From contig NC_089279.1 in the NCBI RefSeq assembly GCF_963678975.1, forward strand, positions 36,041,933 to 36,105,932: a DNA stretch of 64,000 bases, read 5' to 3'. Positions 3,126 through 23,390 of the stretch are shown here, piece by piece; position 1 is the first letter of the stretch; the number at the start of each line of letters is the position of its first letter. This DNA comes from Dysidea avara (taxonomy: Eukaryota > Porifera > Demospongiae > Dictyoceratida > Dysideidae). The notes under the pieces were generated by a model. That model was given only the letters and a program-made list of their open reading frames with translations, made no database searches and had not been told where the DNA came from. A program made the translations under genes and the position numbers.

Positions 3126-6100
3126 ATGGCGCAGCCTTTAGTGACAGTAGAGACAGTTCGGGACTATATCGCCAGTCGAGGAGGTGTAGTGAAGAATGTT
3201 GAACTTGTGAGACACTTTAGATTGTTCTTACAACAAGAGGATCCTGAGCGGAAAGGTTTTAACACATCCGTTGCGTTGTGTTTTCGAGTTACCAATTGTC
3301 TTCATTGTATTACAGCTCTGGCGCGTAGTTTGTTCAAGGACTACGTGAACGACATTGCTGCTATTAAACTAGAAAATGTGAGTACATACCTTTCCGTGTA
3401 GTTTGTTGTGTCAATGGCGGTATACCCAATGAGGTGTCCCAGCCATATAAAGACTACTAGTACATCAGAAGCTACACATGTGGACCTCTTCCTTGTATAG
3501 TGTGTGGTGTGTTAGCTGGGTAGTGTAGCTGAGACAGTGATGGTTGCTCTTATATGTTTAATATGGAGTATATTATACACTTGGTTGAGTCACTTTCCTT
3601 CCTAGATACCCAGTCGCATAGTGGTCTGGCCATACAAAACTATACAGCTATTTATACTTCTGTAGCCAGAACCCATTTTCTTCAGTATAGCACTTATTGA
3701 TTAGACAAATACCTCCTTCTGAGAAGGGCAACTTTGTCCTAGCCATTCATGGTTGTGGTTGTTTTGGTAAAGACACTGAATGCTCTCAATGACTTTTGTG
3801 ACAACCATTAGAGTCTGAAATTTGTGTACATAACCTTATAAGGTATTAGCTACCATGAATAGGGTTAAGGGATGCTGAAAAAAGTGTATCATGATAATAT
3901 TATCATGGAGATATTTATCATGATAATCGATATTATCATGATATTTATATGCACATTAGAAAAACTGTATGCAATATACGTATGTACAAGTTTTACTATG
4001 GCTGTATCCATAAGCACTGCATGTTGTTACATTTATAAGACAGTTTTATTGGTGGTATTGTATTTTGTAAGCAATACATCACGATACATCGTGAACTCGA
4101 TATATCATGATAATATGTATAAATAGCCTTGATACATGTACAGTTATCATCCATGCTTTTATCGTGATAGCAACGATATATCATTACATTGCCCAACCTT
4201 AACTGTGACTATGTAAAATTTCAAGTTAACCTTCATGACATGTTTCAGACATATAAACAGTGTTACTATAGTCAGCACATTGACCCATCCATATTGATAG
4301 TTCCAATCTGTACGTTGAATGCTGACAAACTATTGGCCAATTTGTGTATAGTAAGTGGCCCCTATAGTTTCAATGTTTAGACTGTCAGCTTAATAAACTG
4401 GCTTGACAGCAGTTACATGAAATTCCCTTCCCACAAACTATTAACAGTATGAGCTGTCATAGCAACAGTCACTGTCAATATGGATCTGCTAGCCAGTGTG
4501 AATAAAAATTTGTCCACAAACTATTTCCCTTTCACAATACAAGATATTACTATGATATGAATCAGTTGACAAGAGATGACTTAATGGGTGTACCCCTAAG
4601 GGGTGTATCCATTCACTGGACTGGATTACTGGACTGCTCACATAAAATTTGCTTAGACATATTTTTTCCACAAACACCTTTTTTAACTACTAAAAGTGAT
4701 TACATACCACACATGGGGCTAGGGCTCTCCATGTCTTGTCATATTAAAGTATATCTTTTAAAATGTACTTATTAAGGCTGTACAGCACAAGTGTGCCATG
4801 CTGAAGGTAGGATGTCTTTTTAAAGATGTTATATTTAGTATGTTTGGAAAAGTGTTCATAGTTTTGGTGGTCTATTTAATGGTATATAACTTTAATTTGA
4901 ACTCTTGTTGCACTCACTGTATATATATTTCAAATATGTGTAATCTTACCTTCCTGTTTGAAAGTGTGCACATTAGGAAGCTTAAATGTAACACTGCGTA
5001 CTCGTTGCTATTTACAAACATTATAAACCAAAGAGCCGGCAAAGCTAGAGTGAATGCGTAGGCTATAGGTGATTTCTATGTTACATAATGTAATTGCATG
5101 GTGTAAAATGTATATATGGTGTGCTATTTTACAAAAGAAGGTTAGAATGTTATTTTTTTGTTTTAACAGTGCTTGAAACATCACTAGCAGTAGACAAATT
5201 ATTTTTGATAACGAACTGCACTAGATTTTAGTGCAGTTTTTTTTTGTGATCAATGTACAAGTTTTATGTCTCGTGGTGAATGGTGTCAGTTTCTAAGACA
5301 CTTTTTAGTTAAGTCTGGTGATAAAATGTAAGAAAACAAAAAAATAAACTTCAGTCCAGTAATCCAGTCCAGTGAATGGATACACCAATGATGTAATTGT
5401 ACTTTAAGCACTTGTGTGGGTGAAGATCAAACGATAAGAGTGCTATTATTTTCATAAAGCACCTACATACAGAAAATACAACACTGTTGAGCACATGCAT
5501 AACATTTTAAATTGTCAAAAGCAGCCAAAACGATACTATCTGTTTATTTTATGACAAAACTTGTGATATATAGACGCTTGCCAATTATCTGATGTGACAT
5601 GGTCGTAGCTACAAATGAAATGAACACTCTGAACGAAGACAACCAGAAAACACTTTAAACCAGTTAAAGCATTGCCACGCTCATCTCTCTCCCACACCCT
5701 CATGCCATATTAATCACGACGGTGCTTTAACTAATAATTATGTAGATGATGGTGGAATCATCAGTTGTAAAAATAACTTTTGTGCAAAGTGTTTGTGTGG
5801 GTGGGGGGTGTCAGTGTCGTTGTCTAGTATATCTTTGAGTTTGCTTGCTGTAGTTACATTTTCTTCAAGACAGTATTGATACATGTATGGAATGTGTGCT
5901 AAAATCATTCATTGCATATGACAGATAACATATTTATGATACTACAAGTATTATCTGTCTATAATGAATATTGCCCTGGCTTGTACACCATGACATAAAC
6001 ACCATACGATAAACTGTTGGCAGTCCTCTTAATGTCTGGGCTACTGTATGTGTTCAGGACTGACTAACATACAGACATGTTATTATACAGGGTGAAAAGT

Positions 6101-9100
6101 ATTTGATATTAAAGCCACACCTCCAACAAGAAATGGGTGTTACATCTGGCACAAAACCGCCCCCTCTACCACCAGTAGAACCATCCGACAGCTCTGATGG
6201 AGGTATCCTCAGTGCTCTTAGTCCAATGTTGTTCAATCAGCCAACCCCACTTCAACAACAACCTCCCACACCAAGGGAGATGCCTCCACCAAAAGAACAT
6301 TCTTACCCTCCACCTTCTAGTCAAGAACCACGTTCACCTCTTCAATCTATCCAGCAATACCCTGCACTGTCTGTTACTCCGCCATCTACTAGTTCTTTAC
6401 CACGTGCTCATAGTAAGTTAATACAATTTGTTAATTAGGATTTGTATAATAGTAGTATTGTACACATTCCAATTACGCATACAATCACTATATTCATGAT
6501 GTTCTCATGGTTACAGATCATCCTGTAGACACAAGGAATGTTCCAAAGCAGGGCTCAGCCCCTCCTCCTCCCACCGCACGGGATAGTACGACTGCCAGTG
6601 AAAAAGCTGACATTAAAAAGATGTCAGCATCCACTGACTCCCTTGAGAAGTCTGGCGGGCTACAATCATCTGTTACCAAACGAATAAAAGGTCAGCACCA
6701 TCCATTTCATAAGGATACCTGCCTGACTGATTATTGTATCACAGCTGCAAACAGCATGGCACGACGCAGTGGCTCATTCAACTATGCAGATTATCGTAAT
6801 TCAGCAGCTGGCCGTCCACCTGTTGCCCCTCCAAGTGGCAGGAACAGTCCTCGTGGTAAGGGACGCATCAACATTCCTGCTGGCCCTGGATTTGATGAAC
6901 GTAGAAGTGGTAAGACCTCGGTAGAGTGAGAAGCTTACAGATACCTTATTCCTGTGCCTGTAGTATTTGAGAACCAAACTAGACGTATTACACTGACTCC
7001 ACAACAAAGAAGAAAGGTAACAGCTAGTCCTTGACACTGCTATGGACATTTCACTCTTGCAGGCTGGGCAGAGCCTTCAGCTAAGCATCAAAAATTTTGG
7101 TGGATCAAAGGACTCTAATTTAGCAGTAGTGGGAACTGAGGTATAGTGACATGTTATGATGTAATATGACATCATTGTAATGTTGTTAGGGAACCAACTA
7201 TGAGTGGGACGATACATCATGTAAGGACTACTGGAACCTGTTAATGTGGACACTGGAGGATACCTAGACTCCTCTTAGTTAAGGTCCCCTTAGGCTGTCC
7301 ACATTATACAGGTTCCACATTATAACCCTACAATGATACTGTGTGCTTGTAGCCATCAACACATCAGGATCAGCAATGGAGTACGAGGGTCTTGATCCAA
7401 CCGAACATGAATGGATCAATGCATCAACAGATGCCGATGTTGACACCATCCATCGTCTGTTGATGGTTGACCCAACCCTAGTCAACAGAAAGGTAATTAA
7501 CTGATCTAATTGCTAGTTTTGGAGGGATTTCAACCTTCTGGTGGGCCTTAGTGGGATAATTATCATGTGTTGTACAGGACATGCCAGGTCTTTTTGAGTT
7601 TCAGTATTTACATTCTCACTTCCCGACCCTGCTATACAGGCTTCCAGCTTTCTTAGGGGACCATAGTAACAAGAGTTAATAATATAGGAGATTGTTAACT
7701 AGTGCACATATTGAGCTGAGCCCTCAAAAACATTTAATAACTCATGGATGGGATTACACAAGTTCTTGAAATTTGGAGTACTGCTTGACCCACTAAAATA
7801 TTTCAAAATCTTGTATCAAGTGTCCACTGTGTGGAAGCCATAAATTGCATAGCCTACAACTTGTAGCACAGCCAAACCACACATCTGCTCTTGACACCTT
7901 TACTGTCACTACTAATCTGGTGCTACGTAATTTCTGCTGAGAGAAAAAAATATCCACTTCACTTTTTTAACTGAGTTCTCAGAGCTCAGCTCATTGTGTA
8001 CAGATGTGATTCAGATTTGATATTTACTGTTGTAGGATTTCTTCATGGTGAGTGTTATTATGAGTGACAATTTATTGACTACTCTCTTTCTTTGATTTCT
8101 GAACTGTTGCTATGGTGACTACACACAGGGGGTAAGTGTATATTGTGTTATGTGTGCTCACAACAAGTTGTTATTTCTTTCATCGTTTACTGTGGACATG
8201 GACCAATAGTATGTAAGTTGATATGTGTAAACATGTGGTATTGTGTGTAGTGGACCATTGTATGGGGTATTTGAGACTTAATTGTGAGTGACCACTTTCC
8301 TACAGTACATTTCACAACTTGTGTTATGATTTCAATATGATTAAGATTGTACTGTATACATAACAAATTTTTTGAGGTAGGTAATATTCGCAGATAGACA
8401 AATTTCAGGATTTTCGCAGTTTTATTTTTGAGGATCACATGTCTTTTGTTGAGGATCACATGTCTTTCGTTGAGGATCACATGTCTTTTGTTGAGGATCA
8501 CATGACTTTCACTGAGGTTATACTATTAGAAGCATAGAGATAATCGCTAACTTTTGAGTGTGATAATTTCGCAGAAAATCAAGCAACCATGAAATCCATG
8601 AAAAATACATCCCTCGAAAATTTATACATGTACGGTAGTTGTGCATTGTGAAAATTGCATTCTCTTGAATTAAAACTGATCATCTTTTGTTTATAAGAAG
8701 ATGCAGTTTACCAAGATATCTTGTTGTGGTGTTGCCCAATTGCTACAATATTGTGTTGCTAGAAATTTACTAGTAAACGTAGTGATGGAAGATGGCCCCT
8801 ATAATTGTTAATAGAATTAGTATGTAGTGTACAGCCCAAGTGTGCTTGAGAGGCATAGGCGTAAACTGGACTGTGACATACGTACATTGCCATATATAGA
8901 ATTTAATATCAAATATATTGTGAGCTGCTGGTACTACACTATGGGTGTGTTGTTCATCATTATCATTACAGACGGCAGTACACTGGGCAGCATTGCATGG
9001 TCGTGTGGACATGGTCACTGGACTGATGATCAATGGAGCATTACTGGATATCAAATCTGTGAGTAATCTGTGTGATATGTTCTAGTTTTCTGTACATAGA

Positions 9101-10743
9101 TAGAAACTACAGTACATTGATTTCCCTTCAGTTGTTGTCCAGTCAACAATATTAAAATATTCCATTTGTACTAAACTCCTTATTCTCCTCCATAACTACA
9201 CAAATATGTATATAGCTCTATACAGTGTTGTTAGTTGTGTTGTCATATTCTCTCTCTATGTGTTGCCATGACGATGACAGAATGTGAGTTTGTACTATTG
9301 TGTGCATGTTGTAATGATATGTGTCTGCTTTTGTTATCGACTTGTAACATCATGACATCACTATGACATTGTCATCACTAGGGGGTGAGTTTGTATGTAC
9401 TATACACAAGGTAAAAATGTTGTCATGGTAACTTACCATATAAGGGATACACTCCACTGCACCTTGCCGCACAGCGAGGTCATGATCATGTGATCGAGTG
9501 TTTAGTGAAGGATCACGGTAATGGGTGGATTTAATAAAATATTTATAATTGATGTGAATTCACAATTCTCAGGAGCTCGGACAGACATTCGGGAGAATAG
9601 TGGCCGACTGCCAATTGACATGCTCAAACTAACAGCTTCAGAGGATTCAAGACGTATGTGTGATGTAATGTTTCATGTGTTAAATGGAATATGTTAATTG
9701 GTGCAGGCATTCTGGAGACTGGATTGAAGGATTATGGCCTACGTCGTAAACCAGTTGCTGAAGGTAAGTAGTTTAAAAATTACTCTCTTAATACAGTACA
9801 CTCTCTGATTAAGGACACAGTAGAAAATACCCAGTAGTCTGGCTACAGTTTTAACTCCAAACTCCAGTGGAGGTTGATCATGTGCCACCACTCACCACAC
9901 GACCTCAAAGAAATGTTGAACTGTGTTTTGAACTACGTATTTCAACATTGATAAGTATATCCATACCAGTGTGTCCTAGGGAATTTGCGAGCCTCAGTGC
10001 ACTACTTTTCCTAACACAATGTCCGGTTCTGTTGTATTTTATCAGCAAAAAAGCACACGTCCTGTTGCTTCCATCTAGTAAATGTATGTGATACTGTTTA
10101 TGTTTTGTGTGAGGCTACAGTGTACATGCAATTTATGCCTCTAGGAAGTTTATAACATGTACTCTGTTTGTGTGTATGCAGGCACATTGTTTAATCAGAA
10201 CAGTCATATGGTGAAGAACTGGTTGTTAACGGGTAAATGTTGTTTGTTCCCCTGTTACAGCAAGGAGGATAAGTGGGGCTAGGAAAGGTTCAGCACAAGG
10301 AGGGGGGCAGCTGGCAGGTGCTAAGATGTGGAGCTCCATGGGTGACATGTTGGAGGGAGAGGATGAGACAGATGACAAGAAGAAGGTAAACTTACATAGT
10401 GGCCGTTTCATTAATAAGGTCCCAAACATAGCTAAGGTGTACTTCATGACCTCATTAATAATACCACCTGACCAAGCCAAGGTTGTCTATTAATATACTT
10501 TCTTGTCATTGTCTCGGTAGAAGAAAGTTCGTAACACAAGTATTTTGAGACGGTTTAGCATGAGGAAGGAAAAAAGAAAAGCTTATTTGTCAGAAATATA
10601 CGAGTCTGGAGACCAAACCGACAGGTGAGACACAAAGCACCTACATGTTGTCTTCATTAATGTGTTGTCGTAGTCCGTCTCTCGACCGGAGGAAACAGAA
10701 TCGGAACAGAGTACAGTCAGAAATGATCTCTTATGCTGTGTAA
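3126..10743 (+). CDS. SOWAH: SOWAH (sosondowah) ankyrin-repeat protein, complete gene in 22 inferred exons
   Basis: Exons: 3126-3255, 3316-3377, 6091-6412, 6517-6690, 6745-6909, 6964-7016, 7063-7140, 7190-7220, 7353-7492, 8036-8047, 8129-8131, 8210-8212, 8972-9058, 9281-9283, 9382-9384, 9445-9517, 9573-9653, 9707-9763, 10182-10232, 10261-10385, 10521-10624, 10674-10743. All phases agree and predict 608 residues. Residues 1-75 match the SOWAH winged-helix domain (TVRDYIASRGGVVKNVELV, then LFKDYVNDIAAIKLEN, GEKYLILK). A Pro-rich, probably disordered region follows. LDPTEHEWINAS (about 350) and two ankyrin repeats (TAVHWAALHGR, GYTPLHLAAQRGH) then match the family, ending with ENSGRLPIDML and a basic tail. 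The molecular role of SOWAH proteins is poorly known. Exons 11, 12, 14 and 15 are only 3 nt. The 60-bp intron 1 and 54-bp intron 4 are stop-free in frame, so retention is possible. Intron 2 hosts a MITE. Start: the first ATG giving the domain; an upstream in-frame near-start at 3072 lacks family support. Confidence 0.88.
3870..4190. repeat. AT-rich palindromic low-complexity stretch in SOWAH intron 2
   Basis: Repeated TATCATGATAATAT-type self-complementary words appear at 3887-3945 and again at 4100-4190. Short open frames here on both strands are accidental. No terminal repeats or target duplications can be made out. Confidence 0.5.
4601..5387. mobile_element. MITE with GGGTGTATCCATTCACTGG ends, in SOWAH intron 2
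   Basis: The left end GGGTGTATCCATTCACTGGA and right end TCCAGTGAATGGATACACC are inverted repeats, each followed inward by the GGACTGGATTACTGGACTG phrase. The interior resembles 11233-12654 once the insertion in that copy is removed. Around 4860 it holds GTTTTGGTGG once, the uninterrupted target site for the insertion seen at 11390. Clear target duplications are not visible at this copy. It is non-coding and sits in the transcribed intron of SOWAH. Confidence 0.75.
8048..9444 (+). other. SOWAH: Chain of four 3-nt microexons in SOWAH (8129-8131, 8210-8212, 9281-9283, 9382-9384)
   Basis: Each triplet sits between an AG acceptor and a strong donor: acag|GGG|gtaagt, atag|TAT|gtaagt, acag|AAT|gtgagt and ctag|GGG|gtgagt. 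All are phase 0, encoding Gly390, Tyr391, Asn421 and Gly422. With them the protein reads DFFM-G-Y-TAVHWAALHG and DIKS-N-G-GYTPLHLAA. This reproduces the DF..GFTxLHW and SGGYTxLH motifs of vertebrate SOWAH, and gives exactly 33 residues from the Thr of one repeat to the Thr of the next. Without them those conserved Gly/Tyr positions are missing. The exon before them is also tiny (12 nt, 8036-8047). Introns between are 81, 78, 759, 222, 98 and 60 bp. Confidence 0.75.
8430..8515. repeat. Short tandem repeat, about 22 bp x 4
   Basis: TGAGGATCACATGTCTTT is repeated four times with small changes, inside the 759-bp SOWAH intron. The surrounding text (AAGCATAGAGATAATCGCTAAC and TCAAGCAACCATGAAATCC) resembles 32060-32190, so the tandem lies within a dispersed repeat. 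Confidence 0.7.
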
Positions 10744-11232: not shown

Positions 11233-12654
11233 GGGTGTATCCATTCACTGGACTGGACTACTGGACTCGCATAAACTTCGCTCTAACACATGTTTTGACC
11301 ACAAACACCTCTTAAGCACAAGTGCTGAAGGTCTGTAGGACACCTGGTATTACAGCCTGTTTAAAGATGTGTGTTTGAAAAAGGTACTAGTTTTGGTGGG
11401 GGTGTAACTAATCACTGGACTGGACTACTGGACTGGACTACTGGACTGGACTACTGGACTGACATACTTTTGGTTTTTACACATTCTGAGATTGGTTTTA
11501 TTGAGTCTAGCTAGCCAAGGGTCTTCAAAAAACTTGCAGCCTGCTACAGGAGTAAGCAAAAACTGACTTCTCACTACTTGTTGTGTTCTACAGCATTTAT
11601 ACACTTCTTAGTATTGTGTTTTGGAGATTGTAATACCTAGCAGTAGCTAACCAAAAATCATTTTACTATATTTGTGCTCCCTATCTTACACTGTATCCTT
11701 GAACTAAATAGCTCAGACCCCTGGGACACAACCTATCCTTCCTAAGATAATCTATTGTAGCTAAATTTGTTCCTACATGTAATATACAAACTCATTACAC
11801 AACTGTAGAGTTTTTTCTGCTATCATGATTAGTTCTTACATGTGCTGGTTGGCGTACTATAATATGTGACCAAATTTATTAGCATTGTACAAGCTTGCTA
11901 CTATCTCCAATTGGTTAACTATAACTAGCATATTCCCTGTAGCATACTGATAAGTAGTATAGGTGTATGTACTGTAGAAGAACATAATAAATAGAAGTGA
12001 AATCACTAGAAGTCAGTTTTTGCTTACTCCCACTCCTCATACTCATCATTTTAGTAACAGACTGCAAGTTTTCTGAAGGCCCTTGGTTAGCAGGAATCAA
12101 TAAAACCAACCTCAGAATGTGTAAAAACCCAAAATATGTCAGTCCAGTAGTCCATTCCAATGTTCCAGTCCAGTAATCCAGTCCAGTGATTAGTTACACC
12201 CGTTTTGGTGGTTTATAACTGGTTTAAACTCTTGTTACAGTTACCGTATTTTTTGCTTCCTGTTTGAAAGTGTGCACAATTCTTTGTAACACTACCCACT
12301 CATTGCTATTTACAAACAAACCAAAGAGCTAGAGTGAATGTGCAGACTGTTGAAAGGCTACAGGAGATTTCTATGTTACATAACATAATTGCATGGTAAA
12401 ATTATTATTGTGTGCTATTTTACAATGCTATAGAAAAGACAGACAGATGCGTTAGTAGTGTTAACAGTGCTTGAAACATTGCTAGCAGTAGGCAAATTAT
12501 TTTGATAACAAACTGCACTAAGGTTTTAGTGATCAAAGTACAAGTTTTAGTACATGTTTTGTTGGTGAATGGTATCAAATTCTAACACTTTTTGTGGTTA
12601 AGTCTGGTGATAAATGATAAAATAACAAAAAAAACTTGAGTCCAGTGTGCACCC
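11233..12654. mobile_element. MITE with 10-bp target duplication, carrying a second MITE
   Basis: The ends are GGGTGTATCCATTCACTGGA on the left and TCCAGTGTGCACCC (decayed) on the right. The flanks are ATCATCAGTG at 11223-11232 and ATCATCACTG at 12655-12664, a 10-bp duplication with one difference. Interior parts (about 11340-11390 and 12212-12640) match 4800-5370. A 10-bp duplication with GG-starting inverted repeats is in the range of Mutator-like (MULE) elements. That class call is inference, because no transposase is present in the window. Confidence 0.8.
11400..12201. mobile_element. Younger MITE inserted in the 11233 MITE, exact 10-bp duplication
   Basis: The ends are GGGTGTAACTAATCACTGGA and TCCAGTGATTAGTTACACCC. 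GTTTTGGTGG occurs at 11390-11399 and again at 12202-12211, exactly flanking the element. The uninserted relative at 4601-5387 has this word once, so the insertion event can be read directly. The arms carry three near-tandem GGACTGGACTACTGG units. It is non-coding. Confidence 0.88.
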
Positions 12655-22800: not shown

Positions 22801-23390
22801 TTAAAGTACACTTTTTCCTTTGATCTCATCCATGCAACTCATTTTAAAGGTTGACACTTCTTTGAAAGCATTACCAACCTCTTCTGGTAGTGAAGTATCA
22901 GTTTTACAGAGCAACGTATTTTATGGACGAGTTAGAAACAAAAAAATTTTAATCATAATAATCTACTCTTGTAATTCTGGAGACTCCATTGTCGAGCTAA
23001 ATCTGTAATATGTATCAGTGGAAGAGTGGCTAATATTGTTTAGTTGCTGTAGCACTGATTGCAGTGATGAGCCAGTAAGTGTTATGTGCAGACATCTAGG
23101 AAATGACTTAGGCCTTGAGGTGGTTTTATGTGTGTTTTTGTAACTAGTCACTTCTATTACTAATGTTGTATTTCTTTGATTAAATGCTGCACCTTCGGTA
23201 GTAGCCACAACTGATTCATAATTTCCACATTGAACTTTTAAGTTTTATATGCTTAAACATTGTAATACAAATTACAATTGTGTTTTGTCCACCCTGTGTA
23301 GTGCCATTGGGTCGGGGGAGAGGTCGAGGTCGCGGGAGAGGACGGGGCAGAGGAGGAGGTAGGGGACGTGGTGGACCACCAAGACGATGA
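19875..23390 (+). CDS. SNRPD1: Small nuclear ribonucleoprotein Sm D1
   Basis: Exons: 19875-19888, 19982-20058, 20136-20324, 23302-23390, giving 122 residues (human 119). The start [20 protein letters not shown] and Sm1 motif ([20 protein letters not shown]) lead to Sm2 ([20 protein letters not shown]). A C-terminal GR-repeat tail of about ten GR units ends GGPPRR. Sm D1 is a core subunit of the heptameric ring on U1, U2, U4 and U5 snRNAs, and the GR tail is the usual target of arginine dimethylation. All splice junctions are GT-AG. Intron 3 is about 3 kb and packed with repeats, in contrast to introns 1 and 2 (93 and 77 bp). Start choice is fixed by the invariant MKLVR N-terminus. The gene is head-to-head with CCDC113. 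Confidence 0.96.
21641..22730. repeat. SNRPD1: Hairpin element plus about 460-bp direct duplication in SNRPD1 intron 3
   Basis: TTAAAGCATTGCC at 21641 and GGCAATGCTTTAA at 21725-21737 bracket an inner palindrome (AATAAAGCACTAGG ... AAGTGCTTTATT). The stretch from ATGATTTATGGAACTTTCTA (21738) to GGGCAACTGTGCTTTATTG (about 22185) repeats at about 22244-22720 in the same order with scattered changes. The AAGTGCTTTATTTTTCA word begins both units. It is a non-autonomous DNA element or tandem of one; no coding sequence. Confidence 0.6.

Follow-up and report, generated by a model that had tools for sequence, protein, structure and literature searches.

Within a 64,000-nucleotide (nt) stretch of the genome of the sponge Dysidea avara (contig NC_089279.1, positions 36,041,933 to 36,105,932; hereafter the window), the gene SOWAH almost certainly contains four real coding exons of 3 nt each, arranged as two pairs (exons 11 and 12, exons 14 and 15). 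Each would supply one residue to the turns before the TxLH helices of two ankyrin repeats. Our explanation as a whole, namely that these are real exons of the main mRNA, that they are ancient splinters between introns and that they are spliced stepwise, we hold at a probability of roughly 0.87. The exon structure was rebuilt by hand from the window. The resulting gene (positions 3126–10743, plus strand) has 21 coding exons and 591 codons, and all 20 introns are GT–AG; with the four 3-nt exons included, its reading frame is intact and free of internal stops. An earlier reading of this DNA, made from the sequence alone (the sequence-only reading), had named the gene SOWAH, and this identification holds. 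The N-terminal SOWAH winged helix (PF25877) is listed as precomputed for P0001, the NCBI model of D. avara SOWAHA-like, which shares its first 390 residues with the window protein (our own Pfam scan did not report PF25877), and ankyrin repeats follow a linker in the window protein (PF00023, 1.4e-12; PF12796, 2.9e-11; Pfam scan).

The array is directly preceded, as the sequence-only reading had said, by a 12-nt exon encoding DFFM (exon 10, 8036–8047, phase 0). Exon 11 (8129–8131) is GGG, encoding Gly390 (cacag/GGG/gtaagt), and exon 12 (8210–8212) is TAT, encoding Tyr391 (aatag/TAT/gtaagt). After an 87-nt exon in phase 0 that encodes TAVHW...DIKS (exon 13, 8972–9058) come exon 14 (9281–9283; AAT, Asn421, gacag/AAT/gtgagt) and exon 15 (9382–9384; GGG, Gly422, actag/GGG/gtgagt), followed by exon 16 (9445–9517), which opens with GYTPLHLAA. 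All lie on the plus strand. We call the G and Y before TALHW or TAVHW site A, and the N and G site B. Each triplet was found in the sequence where it had been claimed, in phase 0, with AG before it and GTAAGT or GTGAGT after it, and all four fall within the usual definition of a microexon (≤30 nt, AG before, GT after); their placement draws on sequence, phase and the enumeration described below, and at exon 11 the NCBI model enters as well. The claimed spacing is likewise borne out, as in the spliced model the threonines of the two TxLH motifs occupy positions 392 and 425, exactly 33 apart. The acceptor of exon 16 (ccatataag, within acttaccatataag) is indeed pyrimidine-poor. The k-mers GATTTCTTCATGGGGTATACGGCAGTACAC and GATATCAAATCTAATGGGGGATACACTCC would mark the spliced form with the added codons, as against forms lacking 3 or 6 nt. 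Zero-nt recursive splice sites are ruled out, as three nt separate AG from GT at all four sites.

The placement of these exons is close to unique. The pattern AGNNNGTRAGT occurs nine times on the plus strand of the window and never on the minus strand, and four of the nine are the SOWAH 3-nt exons. (The other five plus-strand matches, at 23072 with CCA, 29966 with TTG, 42288 with TAG, 56856 with AGG and 63237 with TGT, may be ordinary exon ends.) When both host introns (8048–8971 and 9059–9444) were subjected to 20,000 dinucleotide-preserving shuffles, at least two sites appeared in 29 shuffles of the first intron and 7 of the second, in both introns together in none, and the codons G,Y or N,G in that order likewise in none. 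We also enumerated the ways in which GT/GC–AG splicing could insert six bases with the flanking exon ends fixed, either as pairs of exons of 1–5 nt or as one 6-nt exon, allowing introns of at least about 30 nt. This yields one combination for N+G and two for G+Y, of which the second (8129 + 8821) has a poor donor (gtagtg), leaving one solution per site with consensus donors. A single 6-nt exon encoding GY or NG is ruled out, as the enumeration finds none.

A protein of a probable relative carries the same residues. P0002, a protein of 602 amino acids on a 2,473-bp contig, apparently from a related sponge, is 61% identical to D. avara SOWAH over 99% and holds all four residues, in DFFMGYTATHW and in DIKSNGGFTPLH (DIKS-N-G-GFTPLH). 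We take it to be cDNA-like, because the 7.6-kb, 21-exon gene would, unspliced, exceed its contig. Two residues are present at both sites in all six of the listed SOWAH proteins that lie on contigs shorter than 5 kb (P0002, P0012, P0169, P0174, P0179 and P0181), and since all six keep them at each site, the four 3-nt exons are probably included constitutively. To this extent the constitutive look attributed to them by the sequence-only reading stands, with support that is indirect.

The four residues also suit the fold. When they are dropped, the top score against solved ankyrins goes down from 270.8 to 229.2 bits and that for PF00023 (Pfam) from 47.5 to 42.9 bits; in the alignments shown, the domain with the residues meets solved ankyrins with no gap at site B, whereas without them 2-residue gaps appear. 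An AlphaFold2 model of P0002 predicts residues 403, 404, 434 and 435 in loops before helices 406–413 and 439–446, with a mean predicted local distance difference test (pLDDT) score of 61 for the model and 96 in the blocks around the four residues. The ankyrin repeats are missing from the reference annotation. P0001 matches the window protein through the Gly of exon 11, and beyond residue 390 it is the translated intron after that exon, up to a stop; thus the NCBI annotation entered the first 3-nt exon (GGG), failed to leave it and lost the ankyrin repeats.

One point lay beyond the reach of the sequence-only reading: the array looks ancient, not like a peculiarity of D. avara. We compared SOWAH across animals through protein models, using the best 120 of 287 matches listed, on which the hymenopteran and other counts rest; of the 126 proteins taken, the alignment left out 11 that had no ankyrin anchor. 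The hymenopteran set comprises 87 models (56 species were recognised as Hymenoptera), and a unit was scored as present even when a different residue filled its position (SY, VY, GC). In these models the string before TALHW behaves as three units: DPTS (with variants such as DPSS), G, and Y. The full set is present in 27 models, while 21 have no Y, 20 have no G, five have DPTS alone, five have none, three have Y alone, two have GY without DPTS, three read through and one is joined otherwise. For 23 hymenopteran species at least two models are listed; in 14 of these species the models differ by the [DPTS][G][Y] units, and in Eufriesea mexicana DPTSY, DPTSG, DPTS and Y all occur. Two flanking segments used as length controls are constant, with 24 residues in 79/79 parsed models and 16 in 78/78. 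An optional phase-0 codon at an exon edge with GT–AG sites would begin with GT or end with AG, so GGN and TAY are better read as exons of their own, and G and Y should each be a separate exon in Hymenoptera, in the same order as in the sponge (K/12/3/3/T). The comparison with related species that the sequence-only reading had proposed was thus made on proteins; the unit order (K, four residues, one, one, T) is shared with Hymenoptera, and the pair at site B is seen to be split in D. avara only.

Other animals show similar gaps. Of 28 non-hymenopteran models, site A has two residues in 16, lacks one in five (Tribolium, Parasteatoda, Homalodisca, Melanaphis and one Myzus isoform), lacks both in three (Nilaparvata, Thrips and P0067) and is unclear in four (Ciona, two Orchesella and Daphnia). 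Ciona reads DFIS and then VSKH, likely a GTNAGT donor. Among insects the residue in the G place varies (S, V, A, S) and D can occupy the Y place, with length kept (P0091, P0126, P0174, P0178, P0167). P0067 (Em0200g1a), probably from a second sponge, is without exactly two residues per site (KKDFIF/TALHW and DIQS/GLTPLH). At site B both residues are missing from three hymenopteran models, a spider model and P0067; two ant models have VS or VSI after NETT, as expected from GTNAGT read-through, and in P0088 NG is joined to a different exon. Because the hymenopteran units vary independently and Em0200g1a lacks exactly two residues per site, the array probably predates the sponge–bilaterian split. 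Judged from these protein comparisons, the site A array is very probably ancient, and the site B array is reasonably likely to be so, on thinner evidence. Guinea-pig SOWAHB, which we take to be intronless, has two residues per site (DFLTGYTALHW and KSSCGYTPLH) and, as a retrogene, may be read as a frozen mRNA. Two papers refer to Maeso 2012 for a Sowah retrogene that took the place of its intron-bearing parent in tetrapods.

Three other explanations deserve weighing. It is highly improbable that the triplets arose by chance and are skipped in D. avara SOWAH mRNA, which would then encode shorter ankyrin repeats. A single motif is short, and the open frame does not need the four residues, but no shuffle in 20,000 matched the codons and their order, which the sequence matches exactly, P0002 carries all four residues, the NCBI model enters the first triplet and domain scores fall without them. 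That the 3-nt exons are real but alternative cassettes, the choice of single residues switching the ankyrin domain from a working to an altered state and back, is unlikely. All units (12, 3, 3, 87, 3 and 3 nt) are in phase 0 and multiples of three, the listed models differ by units in those 14 of 23 hymenopteran species, and the 3-nt exons known from hth (PMC7392893) and bee elavl2 (PMC8553928) are alternative. However, the six short-contig, cDNA-like proteins keep two residues at both sites, losing one residue would shift the ankyrin repeat spacing, and isoforms with G only or Y only would be the expected failure of a short-read aligner on two adjacent 3-nt exons. Still less likely is an independent origin in sponges and insects, whether through hot spots of intron gain or through some other sort of error in the insect models. 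Several arthropod models are complete, and insect exon boundaries are deduced from protein models, but the units agree in order and length (four residues, one, one) at the corresponding position of this gene, and losses of exactly two residues recur in P0067, probably a second sponge, and in a model from a spider.

Several observations weigh against our own reading, that of ancient exons in the main mRNA. The cDNA status of P0002 and the other short-contig proteins is deduced from contig and open reading frame size, and the species of P0002 and P0067 are likewise deduced rather than named, P0067 being probably Ephydatia muelleri from its name prefix. Some of the differing RefSeq isoforms in Hymenoptera could be genuine skipping, and exon boundaries in other animals are deduced from protein models. 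A third length control is two-valued (25 residues in 62 models, 62 in 22) and is not counted as independent, because 62 corresponds to the pattern starting at the GYTALH of site A (25 + 37). Site A is complete in 16 of the 28 non-hymenopteran models, as could be expected if introns were lost there or if the annotation is correct. At site B, NG is kept in 73 of 87 hymenopteran models, absent in three, replaced by VS, VSI or VG in three and unparsed in eight; N and G vanish together in the three models that lack them, so two separate site B exons are shown only in D. avara. On the splicing side, the contrast in donor strength given below is partly circular, because donors served to pick out the sites in the first place; the order in which introns leave is our deduction; and fly eMIC exons have weak donors (PMC8797185), in contrast to the GTRAGT donors of the SOWAH 3-nt exons.

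As to how such an array could arise and be spliced, the 3-nt exons are probably splinters left where phase-0 introns lie close together, introns that an early ancestor of animals already had. Because there is no room on a 3-nt exon for splicing machinery at its two ends together, the introns around it would be removed stepwise, not at once. The downstream intron would leave first through its GTRAGT donor, the codon would become the 5′ end of a normal-sized exon, and the weak acceptor would be used afterwards. This downstream-first order, for which we see an even chance, draws on two papers: one whose authors state that a 3-nt exon must be spliced sequentially (PMC8553928), and one in which there may be too little space for U1 and U2 on either side of the exon together and the downstream intron is often removed first (PMC10250204). 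Across the 20 introns of this one gene, GTRAGT donors are found at all six introns that touch 3-nt exons versus 3 of the 14 others (P 0.002), and acceptor scores are lower at the 3-nt exons (4 versus 16 acceptors of one gene, P 0.03, leave-one-out). Nine of the 20 introns are 46–60 nt long, which fits recognition across introns. By eye, TGC, corresponding to the UGC motif that eMIC-dependent microexons have before their acceptors, stands upstream of exons 11 and 14. Separately, the motif GTTGYYATGRYRAC occurs at 8106–8119, 9262–9275 and 9419–9432, immediately before the acceptors of exons 11, 14 and 16, and has five matches at ≤1 mismatch in the window, where 0.85 would be expected; one of the places is counted on both strands. 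It presumably resembles the RFX X-box.

Sponges, to our knowledge, have no neurons. The neural microexons of the eMIC/SRRM4 system have weak acceptors, which the lower acceptor scores in SOWAH may parallel, and, in flies, short introns like those of SOWAH, and they share with our proposal a steric clash and downstream-first removal, but they are regulated and neuronal (PMC8797185, PMC10250204). Closest in size is Drosophila homothorax micro-Ex8, a coding exon of 3 bp that keeps the frame and has been traced across insects; unlike those of SOWAH, it is single, is alternative to a 48-bp form sharing its first three bases, and changes in length between insects (0, 3, 6 or 9 nt) (PMC7392893). Exon 4d of bee elavl2 also has 3 nt between AG and GT and must, according to its authors, be spliced sequentially, but is alternative, single and in a linker region (PMC8553928). 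The 1-nt exons of plant APC11 and VPS55 are, like those of SOWAH, ultra-short, conserved and absent from annotations, VPS55 having GTRAGT donors and the intronless APC11 copies being explained by reverse transcription, although here there is 1 nt, one such exon per gene, and the hosts are plants (PMC8831610). Finally, in the ratchet points of recursive splicing acceptor and donor nearly touch and removal is stepwise, but the juxtaposed sites lie in long introns and nothing is retained, whereas SOWAH keeps three nt (PMC8605326).

The assembly used here (551 Mb, 108 contigs) is another version or another assembly than that of the D. avara genome paper (575 Mb, 162 scaffolds; PMC12909245). A spliced SOWAH retrocopy was not found among the 150 of 302 candidates scored; of 74 matches at E 0.001, four are SOWAH's own exons and the other 70 are at most 47% identical. 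No pair of SOWAH introns showed likeness, as an introner-like origin might give, at E 0.01, and positions 8036–8260 had no match in a phage collection, an uninformative result. Intron 12 holds a tandem array (8428–8509) of 3.9 copies of the 21-bp unit TTGAGGATCACATGTCTTTTG. By eye, CCAGTCCAGT / ACTGGACTGGACTACTGGACTG recurs at 4605–4635, 11240–11270, 11410–11465 and 12140–12195, likely as a dispersed repeat.

Single 3-nt exons were already known; what is apparently new is an apparently constitutive, probably ancient array of four within one domain. By word match in open-licence papers (supplementary microexon lists were outside the search), we found no precedent for a gene with two pairs of such exons, four in all, that are apparently constitutive and shared by sponge and insect. 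A bolder idea, offered tentatively and with low expectation, is that the four one-codon exons and the 12-nt exon form a pan-animal array that predates the sponge–bilaterian split and is kept as independently includable units of ankyrin turns, which tetrapods escaped through the Sowah retrogene and which annotation hid in many genomes. The reference annotation does show a damaged ankyrin domain: it is lost in the NCBI D. avara model, and in only 27 of the 87 hymenopteran models examined is the DPxS unit followed by the two residues of site A, suggesting that one-codon exons are often missed by genome annotation. The array would offer a natural test of how the spliceosome copes when an exon is too short for exon definition, of the order in which introns are removed, and of the reasons why such a structure persists.

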